A DNA stretch of 64,000 nt from Pseudovirgaria hyperparasitica (taxonomy: Eukaryota > Ascomycota > Dothideomycetes > Acrospermales > Acrospermaceae): NCBI RefSeq assembly GCF_010093815.1, contig NW_022985556.1, forward strand, positions 223,339 to 287,338. Direction: 5' to 3'. This document shows positions 397 through 62,518 of this stretch, in pieces. The notes under the pieces were generated by a model, which had not been told where the DNA came from, ran no database searches, and saw only the letters and a program-made list of their open reading frames with translations. How positions within the stretch are numbered: the stretch's first letter is position 1; every line of letters begins with the position of its first letter. Made by a program: the position numbers and the translations under genes.

Positions 397-3300
397 TCAA
401 ATCTCAAATTTCTTCCATCCCTCCACGAGCCCATCACCGGCTTTTGTCACAATCGCCCAGTTCGGTAGGAAGCGCCATATTTCCTCCAGTGCGGGGATTG
501 CGCCTTGGGCGTTTGCATCGGCGTATAGACAGACAACGTGGCCTGAAAGTCCAGTGTTTTTGGACTGCGACGATTGTTTTACCAGGCCGTCATACGTCAT
601 TACTGCATGCTCGCCATTACCTGTCATGTCTGTCGTGCTGGACACAGTATCCCATGCCACGCTCACGTTCCACTGAGCGTGGAAAGTTCGACTCCACAAT
701 CTGACTTCGCGTGCGCCATTCTCGCCCACGGGAGAAAAGCGCGAGTCAGATGCTGCGTTGGCGATATGCAGTGATTTGACGGGCGTGTCGAAGTAAATGC
801 GGCAGTTCTTCGTGTCAAGAGCTGAGATGTAAAAGGTAGCAGTATTCTTGCCGCCTGTGGTTTCGATGTCGAAGTTGAACCATTTGGACTCATAGCTCCG
901 GCGACTGTGGATGGCTGAGATATTGGATGGGAGTGTGACCGGGTGTGCAGGTAGACCGGGCCAAATACAACTCGTCAGACCGTTGCGCGAGCTGGTGTAT
1001 GCATCAGACGATGTGCAGTTTATGTCATGTCCGCTCGCACTGGGGAGGTTAGAGATTGCTGCTTCGACGAAGGGTTGTGCGCCGGTCAGTGAAACTGATG
1101 TAGCGCCGGTGTCGCAGTCAACGCGCTGGAGGAAGAAAAGTTTGAGGCGATTGTTTGGCGAGAACGGAAACGCAACGAGATTATATGCTAACGTGCCAAT
1201 CAGGATCAACAGGAGGAATGTAGGGAAGTGGTAATGGAAGCGGTGTAGGAAGGGTGTGATTGGGATCAGTAGGAGGACGGTGAGGATGGCAATGAAGAGG
1301 TAGACGGCTAGAATGGAGCTGCCGTCTGCTCCAGTCTGGTGCAGACCCGCGGTGATGGTCAAGGCTATCTGTCCAATAAGGACGATATTTATAGGCCCGA
1401 GGAGGAGAAATTGAAGGAGCCAGACAGAGCTTGGGAGTTTGCAGCTCCAAGGCTGCTCTTCACCATAGGCTCCACGCATTTCAGCGGGCGGTCGATCGTC
1501 ACTTGTGGTCTCTGAAACGTCCTGAGAAGCACGGCGAGAGCCATAACGTGCAAAGGATTGACGATCATTTTGTAGCAATGATGTCGTCTCAGTAGCGTCG
1601 TCGTCATGTTCTGTGGACCCATGATTGGATCTATGGTTGGTACCTGAGGTCGGAGGTCGACTATCCGGGCCATTACCATCCATTAGTGCTACGTAGTCTG
1701 CCTTCTTTGGCAGAGCAAACATCTCGAGGAAGGACAGTAGCAGCGCGATAGAGACGCTTGCAAAGTATATGACGAGGAAGTAACCTCCTGCAAGATGGAA
1801 ATTGTTCTCGCTGATAGTGGCAAGGACTAACAGCGCAAAGGATGCAATGTAGATCCATAGCAATGCGTATATGCGCTGCAATGCCGTGGGCCGCATCTCA
1901 TCAGAGGCTCGAAGACCCATCCATGCGACGAAGAACCAGGCCGCAATCATGGAGGCCCATACTGAGTACTCGCTGCTGTATGCGATCAGTGGGTTTACCT
2001 TGGCATATAGGTATGCAAGGGCTATGGTAGCTGCGGTAGCTATAGCAATCGTCATCGGATATCGGAAAAAACCTCGAATTCCATTGAAAGAGATGAAGTG
2101 ATCATCGTTCGAGGAGTGTACCCATCCGCGGCGAGCCCACAGATACATTTTGTCAGCCCGTGACAAGAAGATTGTGAGAACGATGAACATGATCGGTGTA
2201 ACCACAAGAAGCGTGACAGACCAAGCAAAGAGGGTATGCAATTCAAAGACTGCAAGTACTTGAGTGAAGAGATCGAAGTAGACAACCCTGCTTCCGTCGC
2301 CTGCTTTGACTTTTCCATCTTCTGGCTGCCCGCTAAAATGGTCGCTGGTATCTGAGACCATTGCTTTCACAGTGCCGAGTGAGGCCGAAAGCATGTTCCA
2401 GACTGACTGCTTGGACGTCTCAATCGTTGAGTCCTGCATCGTATGATACTTTGCTCTTGGCTCGAAGAAGGCAACATCAAGGCCTCTGAGGCCGAGATCG
2501 CCATTGAACACGACATAATCAGTCTGACTGCGGATAGCGCCTTGTTCAAAACCGTCTGCCGTGACGACGGTACCAAAAGGGTTCTTGGCTTTCTTGTAGA
2601 ATCTCGCAACTTCAGTATCTGTAGCACGGAACAGGATAGCCTTACCTCCCGCTCCGGCTCCTTCGAGGTTCAAAAATGTATGCGGCGTTTGCGAAACAGG
2701 ATGCCGCATGAAAGCCCGTGCTCCATTGAGGTAGTCTTCCTCCCCGTTGTTTAGTAAGAGAACTAGGCATCTGGTTGGCTCGTTGCCTGGTGTAGTGAAA
2801 TAAGAGAGTAGCTGGAGAATGGTGACAATCCCGACACCATCATCAGTGGCTCCAAATCCGGTTGAGACAGAGTCAAAATGAGCGTTCACGAGGACGCCTC
2901 CTTTAACTTTCTTAGCATCGCTTGAGGCATTGTCCTGATAACAGTGGCCTTCATCATCAGTGCCCTTGATCGACACTATGATGTTACTTCCTTCAAAGTA
3001 AACGCTCAAGCTATCTCTCGAAGAGGTAACGTTCGATCCAAGATCGTCAATCACTATGACAGAGCTCAAATCGGTTCTCTTCGTAGAAGTGACACCATCG
3101 ATCCTGTCTCTCTCGACAGCGAAGCTTGCCTTGTTGGTCGTGAGAATCTCAGAGATCCGATCCAGGAGGAAAGTTCTTGCATCGTCGTTCGCTTTGCTGT
3201 TATATGGGTGATAGTATGAAGTCAAGTTTTGAAGGTCATTCCAGGCTGCTGTGAGATCGACTCCTTCCGGGTACTTGGATGGAGTCGAAGGCAGTATATA

Positions 3301-59656: not shown

Positions 59657-60078
59657 TTATAGCTTGCTGATGAACATGCGGGCGGCCATGAGGCGGACCT
59701 TCTGGGGAAGGAGGTACTTGGAGAAAACGTAGATCAGGGTCGGGAGCAGGATCCAGGCAAACGTGACCTCGTTGACGAAGAAAAAGGGGATGAGCTGGGG
59801 CATAGCAGACTGGAGAGCGACCTGCGAAGTATCATTAACATCGGTTCTCCCTTCCCGCTTGACATGCGAAGCTCCAAGCTTACCATCTTGCCTGCCTTCT
59901 TCTCCTCGGGCAAAGCGACACGGGTGATCTTTGCGGGCGCATTCTTGGTAGGTTGGGAGACGCGAGTTTGAGTGCTGAAAGATGCGATGGCGGCAGGACG
60001 GACGATGGCCGACTGTTGAATGACCGGCTGGCGTGGGAGCGCCCGGGCGAGAGGACGGAGGAATCGAGAGGCAGACAT
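59657..60078 (-). CDS. ATP8: nuclear-encoded ATP synthase subunit 8 (Atp8) with presequence
   Basis: Two exons, 60078-59884 and 59821-59657, joined across a 62-nt phase-0 intron (GTAAGC donor, CAG acceptor), give 119 residues. Exon 1 encodes a 65-residue leader rich in Arg, Ala and Ser with almost no acidic residues before position 58 (MSASRFLRPLARALP, then SFSTQTR), a typical matrix presequence. Exon 2 encodes six linker residues and then a 48-residue protein starting MPQLIPFFF and ending MFISKL, the hallmark start and end of mitochondrially encoded fungal Atp8, which is also 48 residues long in yeast. Atp8 is a membrane stator subunit of F1Fo ATP synthase. Trp uses TGG and codons are GC-rich, so this is a working nuclear gene and not a mitochondrial fragment. 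Confidence 0.9.
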
Positions 60079-60589
60079 TGTCGGCACTGCGCGAACGGGT
60101 TAGAGACGTCAATTGAGGAATCACTCTTCCGAGGATCACCAGGGGAGGTCGTACCGAGCTGACGAGAGACTGCAGAAGATGGATTGAGATGAGTGGAGTG
60201 TTTTGTTCGAGCTTCGGTGAAGTGCTAAGGGTTGACGACAAGTTCGATGTGCCAAGACGTTATCTGGTCACGTGAACTTGACTACGCTTCTGGCATTTTA
60301 TGCCTTGCTGCCTTACGCATCGGGCCATCAACACTTGCACCTCGTGCATTACGCACGATCACCCTCCTCACTCTACATCGCATTGTGGATTTCGTGGCAA
60401 GCTCGTGCTCAGGGTCAGGTATTGCTGCAGCCTTTCCCGCGCTTCAACATGCGATAGCGCAGTGCAGTGTTCCAGCAAAGGCAGCAAAGGCTCGCGCGTA
60501 TATTGCCGGGATTCAGGGAGCCACTATAAAACTCTCCTGGCAGCATCGTTATTCTTGTAGACGCAGCTCAGAACATCAACTTACCCACT
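60079..60589. promoter_or_regulatory. divergent promoter between atp8 and the F-box gene
   Basis: 511 bases between divergent starts. A tctcctggcagc stretch and a TATAAA-like word (60523-60529) lie about 65 bases before the F-box start. Nothing else is supported. Confidence 0.5.
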
Positions 60590-62518
60590 ATGGGCTACTG
60601 GGAAGTCAAATGTCGATTCTGTGGCGTAGGCTTCAACATTGGTCGCTCGAGACGTCCCACTGAGCCTCGCTACAAAGGGTGGCTCAACACTGCTGATATG
60701 ATTGGCGTGCCACAAGGTATTCGCAAAAATTGCGTCAAGGGTAAATGTTGGGTGATCATTCGCAGGGAGGGCCCGTGTCTTCCAGATAATGTCCAATTGA
60801 AGGATATGATATCGACTCAAGACATCGACGACAATGACGATCCAGCAGACAGCGATTACATGCTGGACCAAGACGACCAGGAAGATGAGTACGAAGAGCT
60901 TGAGTTCATTTCCGATGACGAGATGATCAGCGATGGCGAATATGGTGATGCTGAAGAGTCCGAAGAGATTATGGGGGACGGCGTCAAGACAGACGCAGAT
61001 CGCAGGGAATCGCAAAACACAAATGGAATACCTCATCAACCGAAGAGTATCAACGACAATGTCCCGCATTCTCCAAGCAATCACAGCACCCAAGCGTGGA
61101 CTTTCGGATGGTGCCGAAGCACCCCAAAGTTTCAGGTAATGATAGATCAGACCATCGATGACCGCAAGACCTGGCTCCCTGCACAAAAATTCTACAAAGC
61201 CAAAACGCCTTTGTACTACGATCGTATGCACGAAATCGAGCACACGACTGAAAGTGCAGACTGCTCGACTGTGACCGCATATAACGGCAATCTCATCGAG
61301 TTCGAAGAAATGAGGGACTGCAATGTCTTTCAAGGAATGGTCCGCCGACAACCCAATTGGGCCCCGGAATCCGATGATATCGACTACGAAAGCGCGAGCC
61401 GATATGTATTCACAGGACTGTGTGGTCACATGTCGTCAACGGATTTGCGATTCTTCCCGCACCTGCGCCCTATACGCTACGGACAAGATAGTGTCTTCTG
61501 CAACGAGTATGTCTGGGATCCGAACGACAATTATGCCATGCCGTTCCATCCTTGGTGCTTTGATATATACGCTAGGCTGTCTCGTCGGTGTAATGGCGTT
61601 GTCGACGTCAACGGCCTGATGGACTGGCATTATTTCGTTGACGGCCCCAGGTATGGGGAACCAACGTACCGTGCAGACGGAAATGTAGACGAAGACGATC
61701 GTCCCTACTCCTGGGGTCATCACGAACATGTGAGAGGGTGTGGGAGCGATTTTTGGCTCCATCCGAAAGGGACAGAGTACCTTGCAGCGAATCCTTTGTT
61801 TGTCCCAAAGTTGCCAGCTCTGCTACAGATGGCCACTGAAACGAAGCCTGACTTTGATCCTAGAGGAAGCCCATTCGCCGAGTCTAAGGATGATGGACTA
61901 CAGACCGATGACTTCTCACGACTCCCGTGGGAGTTGAAGATGGAGATTCTCTCGCATCTCTCGTCGAAGAACATTGCGAACTTGCGCCTAGCCAGCCGCA
62001 CCTTCAGACACTTACCCAACACGCTATGGAAACATCTTCTGATGAAAGAGATGCCATGGCTATGGGAAGTATGGTGTGACGACGAGCCCTATTTCTGGGC
62101 CGCAGTAGCGTTCGGTAACATCGCACAATCCTACATCGACAACGAGCGCGACCTGGCTAGATACGATGAACAGTCTGCCGAAATAGATCGCATTAATCGT
62201 ATAATTGAAGAAGCATACGTTCGCGAAAACCCAGCGTTTGTCGGACGGTGGAAAAAAGCAAGCGCAGAAGCTCTAGGTGAGCGACCGGTTCTGTCACAGG
62301 ACTGGCGATCCAAGGCCAGTCCTGTCTCTGGTAAGTTGCCGTCCAGCAAGACGAACTGGTATTCGCTCTACACACTCATCACGCGACATTGGAAAGATTT
62401 GAAGGGTTTGAGGAACAGAGCGCGAATATGGACTGATATTGAACGAATGATGGGTATGATCGCAGAATCAAGAGAGCGCGGTCTCATTTCGCCGCTTGGA
62501 GGAGACCCGACGTTTTGA
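60590..62518 (+). CDS. F-box protein with acidic N-terminal region
   Basis: 642 residues, single exon. The N-terminus has a small Cys pair (CRFCGVGF, about residues 8-15) and WLNTADMIGVP, common to a fungal F-box-like group. A strongly acidic stretch follows (about 70-125). The F-box is at about 443-490: LPWELKMEILSHLSSKNIANLRLASRTFRHLP, followed by LWKHLLMKEMPWLWEVW. The middle part has conserved Trp, Cys and His residues (HPWCFDIY, CGSDFWLHP) and may form the substrate-recognition fold. Known role of the family: SCF ubiquitin ligase substrate receptors binding Skp1. The substrate is unknown. It is divergent from atp8. Confidence 0.88.
   Translation: MGYWEVKCRFCGVGFNIGRSRRPTEPRYKGWLNTADMIGVPQGIRKNCVKGKCWVIIRREGPCLPDNVQLKDMISTQDIDDNDDPADSDYMLDQDDQEDEYEELEFISDDEMISDGEYGDAEESEEIMGDGVKTDADRRESQNTNGIPHQPKSINDNVPHSPSNHSTQAWTFGWCRSTPKFQVMIDQTIDDRKTWLPAQKFYKAKTPLYYDRMHEIEHTTESADCSTVTAYNGNLIEFEEMRDCNVFQGMVRRQPNWAPESDDIDYESASRYVFTGLCGHMSSTDLRFFPHLRPIRYGQDSVFCNEYVWDPNDNYAMPFHPWCFDIYARLSRRCNGVVDVNGLMDWHYFVDGPRYGEPTYRADGNVDEDDRPYSWGHHEHVRGCGSDFWLHPKGTEYLAANPLFVPKLPALLQMATETKPDFDPRGSPFAESKDDGLQTDDFSRLPWELKMEILSHLSSKNIANLRLASRTFRHLPNTLWKHLLMKEMPWLWEVWCDDEPYFWAAVAFGNIAQSYIDNERDLARYDEQSAEIDRINRIIEEAYVRENPAFVGRWKKASAEALGERPVLSQDWRSKASPVSGKLPSSKTNWYSLYTLITRHWKDLKGLRNRARIWTDIERMMGMIAESRERGLISPLGGDPTF

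Follow-up and report, generated by a model that had tools for sequence, protein, structure and literature searches.

In most fungi atp8, the gene of ATP synthase subunit 8, is mitochondrial. Its relocation to the nucleus is already known in kind: a 2017 paper (PMC5626475) placed both atp8 and atp9 of Stemphylium in the nucleus, with targeting predicted by TargetP, and the nuclear Atp8 of Stemphylium lycopersici (TW65_04673) has an N-terminal extension and a mitochondrial TargetP prediction, with mitochondrial atp8 absent. It shares the nuclear location and the N-terminal extension with the gene described here. The passages of PMC5626475 on Stemphylium describe neither the intron site, nor the origin of the presequence, nor nuclear copies in other species; the study suggests that the loss took place after Dothideomycetidae and Pleosporomycetidae had parted. 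Both atp8 and atp9 were also reported in 2025 to have moved to the nucleus in Shiraia-like fungi (PMC11881002), nuclear atp9 is described in powdery mildew in a paper that cites earlier allotopic atp8 work (PMC8260586), and a 2024 paper counts atp8 among the genes rarely moved to the nucleus, with fewer than 6 transfers (PMC10809612). The first-pass annotation of the present locus mentioned Pleosporales mitochondrial genomes reported without atp8 and atp9; this was right, as passages of four papers state (PMC5626475, PMC4366305, PMC6221350, PMC11167856), and PMC6221350, which finds the two genes absent in Pleosporales, finds them present in two Capnodiales.

The locus lies in Pseudovirgaria hyperparasitica (Acrospermales, Dothideomycetes, by NCBI taxonomy), in a stretch of 64,000 nucleotides that we call the window; S. 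lycopersici belongs to Pleosporales and not to Acrospermales, and the two genes were compared by description only. The gene is on the minus strand. Exon 1 (59884..60078, 195 nt) contains the start ATG and a 65-residue basic presequence/linker, MSASRFLRPLARA...KKAGKM; a predicted spliceosomal intron of 62 nt follows in phase 0 (59822..59883, GTAAGC...CAG); exon 2 (59657..59821, 165 nt) contains the junction codons VALQSA, a 48-codon Atp8 running from MPQL to FISKL, and a TAA stop. The spliced product has 119 residues (65 codons and 54 codons plus stop), with the exons joined six residues upstream of the old Atp8 start Met. On re-reading the sequence we saw the gene as it had first been annotated, in coordinates, strand, exon sizes, 62-nt phase-0 intron, basic exon 1, MPQL...FISKL domain and the join six residues before the old Met. 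Among 24 frame-keeping GT..AG choices of 40-120 nt listed for the locus, 59883-59822 was taken as the intron because this join yields both the junction found in relatives and P0001 (hypothetical protein EJ05DRAFT_500426, a deposited prediction from the same species), to which the spliced protein is 100% identical. Just upstream of the ATG there are signals of a possible 5'UTR intron (60087..60154, minus strand, 68 nt, GTACGA...CTAAC...GCAG; consensus signals only). The divergent neighbour is an ORF for a 642-residue F-box protein at 60590-62518 of the window, plus strand.

By sequence comparison, the identity of the product as Atp8 is far beyond chance. Residues 72-119 cover the whole of the PF05933 profile (Fungal ATP synthase protein 8), positions 1-48 of 48 (E = 5.9e-19); the whole protein scores 68.4 bits with this family, a full-length match above the curated cut-off of 26.1; and yeast Atp8 (PDB 6b2z) is matched over 48/48 residues (E = 1.3e-11). 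A nuclear Atp8 with a presequence exon, as proposed at first pass, is borne out by the 1.66 Mb contig on which the gene lies (C8; 1,656,338 bases), by the GT-AG intron, by GC3 of 0.84 in exon 2 and by the spelling of its single Trp as TGG. The case for a working gene is drawn from sequence, and so far a decayed or silent NUMT preceded by a chance reading frame might be thought of; however, the frame is intact, codon use is nuclear, the intron is canonical, the family match is full-length and, as described below, the presequence is conserved in many species, so that we give next to no credence to such a NUMT and consider atp8 here to be a real, intact and probably working nuclear gene.

Across the 35 Mb assembly PF05933 matched this gene only, although E values as high as 10 were admitted. 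Profiles of COX1, ATP6 and cytochrome b had no match in the assembly (8, 9 and 9 of 14 control genomes, respectively, were positive), and for this reason the mitochondrial genome is probably absent from it. Profile PF00895 (ATP-synt_8) matched neither this genome nor any of the 14 controls; that search thus carries no weight.

Basic, acid-free, amphipathic N-termini are typical of TOM/TIM23 presequences. Exon 1 codes for 12 K/R and 2 D/E, and its first 50 residues include 8 basic and 0 acidic ones; the first 30 residues are free of acid in 38/38 of the models examined out of the 47 full ones. The best 11-residue hydrophobic moment in exon 1, 0.957, was that of SRFLRPLARAL, a value reached by 0.8% of shuffles (p = 0.008). 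Composition, this moment and the homology described below are consistent with a mitochondrial targeting peptide. The 25 residues directly upstream of the old Met have a net charge of +3 in P. hyperparasitica (0 to +4 in the 38 models); unless removed, a charge of +3 would be awkward for export across the inner membrane.

Of 62 candidate proteins, 57 matched the whole atp8 query at E <= 0.001. Named sources include Ascochyta, Curvularia, Plenodomus and Delitschia (Pleosporales); Lepidopterella (Mytilinidiales); Venturia, Verruconis and Tothia (Venturiales); Rhizodiscina (Aulographales); Phyllosticta and Aplosporella (Botryosphaeriales); and Coniosporium (incertae sedis). Patellaria (Patellariales) gave a partial sequence. 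In an alignment of 30 hand-picked full models, P0001 included, the presequence residues M1, R5, R8 and R12 never vary (30/30) and P9 is present in at least 90%; the central part of exon 1 differs from order to order in both length and sequence. Exon 1 of P. hyperparasitica scored 29.9 bits with a profile of 13 Pleosporales-group presequences (with Lepidopterella and Zopfia), 19.0 bits with a profile of 3 Venturiales presequences and 22.7 bits with a profile of 2 Botryosphaeriales presequences. Any of these three scores was reached by 0/2000 composition-preserving shuffles of exon 1, which lose general presequence habits, and the sole real presequence used as a control, that of the organism's own nuclear atp9, scored -2.1, -0.1 and -0.6, respectively. 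Since the profile scores exceed all shuffles and the atp9 control stays near zero or below, the presequence is, on this comparison, homologous to those of Pleosporales, Venturiales and Botryosphaeriales, beyond compositional likeness. The first-pass annotation referred to Pleosporales; the species itself is a member of Acrospermales.

Intron sites of relatives were deduced from protein models that read through the intron, or start inside it, and not from genomic DNA. Seven full-length models (P0002, P0003, P0007, P0008, P0009, P0042 and P0049) were picked for extra residues at the junction; these residues begin with V in 7/7, as a phase-0 GT donor would give, and end with Q in 7/7, as CAG gives, with only the V being a test, as the Q end partly guided the picking. 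By eye, the presequences of the seven are of Pleosporales type (five), Venturiales type (P0042) and Coniosporium type (P0049); only P0007 has a species name, and the latter two calls are made from the look of the presequence. Outside the full set, 47 models among the matches listed have a nuclear-type junction, and 38 of them are long enough to show residue -7, the position that usually closes exon 1: 31, including P0042, have Q there, the residue expected from a CAG acceptor, six have M and one has K. The six M models show the ending that is usual for exon 1, and P0051, the K model, is likewise spliced, one residue shorter. In the 47 full models residue -7 is most often M (34), then Q (7) and L (3), with single cases of S, E and I; the Q of P0040 (Phyllosticta) may belong to exon 1 or to the intron. 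We infer the same intron site in the Pleosporales-, Venturiales- and Coniosporium-type models and do not extend it to Botryosphaeriales. One chimeric ancestor is supported by this result, because the join deduced for the relatives is the join in P. hyperparasitica.

The first-pass annotation had proposed alignment with mitochondrial Atp8s and a phylogenetic placement of the nuclear copy. Both were carried out, with the result that nuclear-type Atp8s group together and that the relocation seems to predate this species by far. The tree (FastTree, unrooted) was built for 141 distinct 48-residue sequences, with yeast and seven DNA loci included; it rests on 48 sites and on a partial sample (120 of 1471 matches in one search). 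Among the matches listed, one clade contained 71/71 nuclear-type and 0/48 mitochondrial-type sequences; nuclear type was assigned by residues upstream of MPQL and mitochondrial type by a C-terminal motif, hence motif and grouping are not independent. Nested clades holding all 71 (again among the matches listed) have 92 leaves with support 0.88, 88 leaves with 0.82 and 86 leaves with 0.73. The 92-leaf clade includes 21 unclassified sequences, the long-branch P0078-P0081 among them, which may be mitochondrial; the 88-leaf clade is free of those four. One group of nuclear-type Atp8s (P0054, P0055, P0056, P0071, P0092, P0109 and kin) ends in FTSKL or similar and has a join of Q followed by six residues; the taxon of this group could show whether the relocation predates Dothideomycetes.

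The homologous presequence and the common clade, together with a junction read from protein models, point to the same chimeric origin as that of Pleosporales nuclear atp8. One could propose instead that the various orders acquired nuclear atp8 by several independent transfers, with a separate presequence each time: the variable middle of exon 1 would agree with this, a 48-residue tree has little power, and the intron site was deduced for some orders only. Such transfers are nevertheless very improbable given that exon 1 is homologous to presequences of three order groups beyond shuffles, that four presequence residues are invariant in all 30 aligned models, that the same junction is deduced for several groups and that all nuclear-type sequences, among the matches listed, share a clade. 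A single old relocation is favoured because the presequence is homologous across orders and the deduced intron site is the same; one relocation older than Pleosporales would best explain the shared presequence and junction. The sequences suggest one ancient relocation of atp8, in a common ancestor of a large part of Dothideomycetes, and we hold it very likely that the P. hyperparasitica locus is a working nuclear ATP synthase subunit 8 gene derived from one relocation in an ancestor of several Dothideomycetes groups.

Gain of the targeting signal by exon capture had also been proposed at first pass, and here the donor exon was not found in the genome: a protein search for a second copy of the presequence and a DNA search that included the 5' flank both returned only atp8 itself. 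Exon capture is a possible source of the presequence exon and intron; after so long, the donor may be beyond recognition. The same genome contains a nuclear atp9 (locus L004, about 1501-1686, minus strand, contig C1), which, like atp8, encodes an Fo subunit with a presequence apparently interrupted by an intron. The two presequences, however, are not detectably related, and atp9 was not supported as the donor (when the two were compared directly, the best local alignment had E = 0.068, and the three profile scores given above lie below zero).

Mitochondrially encoded fungal Atp8 (PF05933; yeast 6b2z) is like the nuclear one in its 48 residues, MPQL start, FISKL-type end and one membrane helix; it differs in having no presequence, in seldom having Pro21 and in being more hydrophobic on average. 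Pro21 is present in 37/37 distinct full nuclear sequences and, among the matches listed, in 38/41 distinct exon-2-type sequences (three are without it) and 1/40 distinct mitochondrial-type sequences; it occurs in 0/7 of the AT-rich loci described below and not in yeast. P0072, P0073 and P0074 are nuclear-type sequences without Pro21; the tree places them inside the nuclear group, and they may have lost the residue secondarily. Glu12 is found in 37/37 nuclear sequences, yet also in 15/40 mitochondrial-type sequences (among the matches listed) and 4/7 AT-rich loci. Mean Kyte-Doolittle hydropathy of residues 13-32 is 1.66 for full nuclear and 2.16 for mitochondrial-type sequences (among the matches listed), with 1.63 in P. 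hyperparasitica and 2.07 in yeast; the ranges overlap, as the mitochondrial locus L013 has 1.62. On the Wimley-White octanol scale P. hyperparasitica has -11.9, the mitochondrial-type mean is -11.3 and the nuclear mean -9.3 (among the matches listed); the reduced hydrophobicity of the P. hyperparasitica helix itself is thus a matter of the Kyte-Doolittle scale only, its octanol value being near the mitochondrial-type mean. Rank tests on the helix classes overstate the evidence, because with one likely relocation the sequences are not independent trials. The initial remark that the helix holds a Glu and a Pro where the yeast protein is more hydrophobic therefore held for the Pro, a mark of nuclear copies, and for mean Kyte-Doolittle hydropathy, and failed for the Glu, which is common in mitochondrial-type sequences.

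Viral and prokaryote collections, searched for DNA of relatives, yielded only mitochondrial-type atp8 loci, which were kept as controls: seven AT-rich loci, L012-L018, with GC of 0.25-0.33. The downstream ORF is ATP6 by profile in six of the seven (L013-L018). Loci L014-L017 (about 3001-3144) and L018 (2720-2863) carry fungal mitochondrial-type atp8 with downstream ATP6 in assemblies filed as bacterial (Fictibacillus barbaricus, Streptomyces albospinus, Tolypothrix and two MAGs), a probable contamination of these assemblies. Loci L012 and L013 are IMG/VR viral contigs with mitochondrial-type fungal atp8 (L013 also with ATP6), probably mitochondrial DNA filed as viral.

In the passages of PMC4366305 atp8 and atp9 occur together only in M. 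graminicola, and atp9 occurs in N. parvum (Neofusicoccum); in PMC8451660 the gene list of Macrophomina (Botryosphaeriales) has atp6 and atp9 and not atp8, and a figure legend nonetheless names atp8 in a 15-gene tree set. As far as these passages go, the two papers fit a nuclear atp8 in Botryosphaeriales. The timing suggested in PMC5626475 fits most orders with nuclear atp8; Botryosphaeriales, Acrospermales and Coniosporium extend it.

In P. hyperparasitica itself, the mitochondrion might still make Atp8, with the nuclear gene being a second, redundant or stage-specific copy. PMC7999263, which reports atp8 in the Pseudocercospora mitogenome, used the annotated mitogenome of P. hyperparasitica as an outgroup, and the three outgroups that it names as missing atp8 and atp9 do not include this species; because of that omission a mitochondrial atp8 may exist there, although the passages do not state that atp8 is present in P. 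hyperparasitica either. PMC7225605, which re-annotated 20 mitogenomes with MITOS, reports nine of them to lack atp8, and the table includes ten Pleosporales, Venturia and two Botryosphaeria; that count leaves at least four of 13 non-Capnodiales Dothideomycetes with an annotated mitochondrial atp8, or else is in error. It is lower than the number of losses predicted from a single relocation, and, as tabulated, we cannot reconcile it with loss in all of them. On the other hand, Pleosporales described as having no mitochondrial atp8 (PMC5626475, PMC6221350, PMC11167856) have nuclear copies homologous to this one, and the nuclear copy of P. hyperparasitica is intact and keeps the Atp8 columns that are invariant in 30 aligned models. 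A dual-copy state is in our view unlikely, but clearly less so than independent transfers.

Returning to the single relocation, we see its course as follows. In an ancestor common to Acrospermales, Pleosporales, Mytilinidiales, Venturiales, Aulographales, Botryosphaeriales and Coniosporium, atp8 would have moved from the mitochondrion to the nucleus and acquired an upstream exon that encodes a targeting peptide for the N-terminus and is joined across a phase-0 intron lying six codons ahead of the old start. The mRNA would be spliced and then translated in the cytosol; the amphipathic, Arg-rich SRFLRPLARAL would direct the precursor through TOM/TIM23 into the matrix, where the presequence would be cleaved. 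The N-terminus of yeast Atp8 is in the intermembrane space, as is that of mitochondrially made Atp8. Because of this orientation a matrix-targeted precursor would have to be re-inserted: the single helix, with its N-terminus to the intermembrane space, would probably follow a conservative Oxa1-like route, and Atp8 would then join Fo beside Atp6. Lower hydrophobicity of the helix and a fixed Pro21 would help the precursor to reach the matrix completely instead of being arrested in the inner membrane. That a single relocation, predating the split of Acrospermales, Venturiales, Botryosphaeriales and Pleosporales, froze the two-exon chimera, with the mid-helix Pro fixed early in the nuclear lineage, seems to us somewhat more probable than the contrary.

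No description of the shared presequence, junction or proline was found in the open-access literature, as far as its passages go (subscription journals were mostly outside the scope). What is new and worth keeping is that the distribution is wider, that the two-exon chimera is shared and that the proline is specific to nuclear copies. A single old relocation would put the loss of mitochondrial atp8 before the origin of Pleosporales, and a 2024 speculation that places it within Pleosporales would be too recent; the losses of atp8 and atp9 would be separate events, as the Macrophomina gene list has atp9 and not atp8. An early Pro would be a natural counterpart of the cuts in hydrophobicity that some laboratory relocations needed. 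A single ancient relocation that was widely inherited, whose presequence can be traced and whose helix changed in one lineage, would amount to a natural experiment on a membrane subunit made in the cytosol, a question also met in allotopic-expression work.
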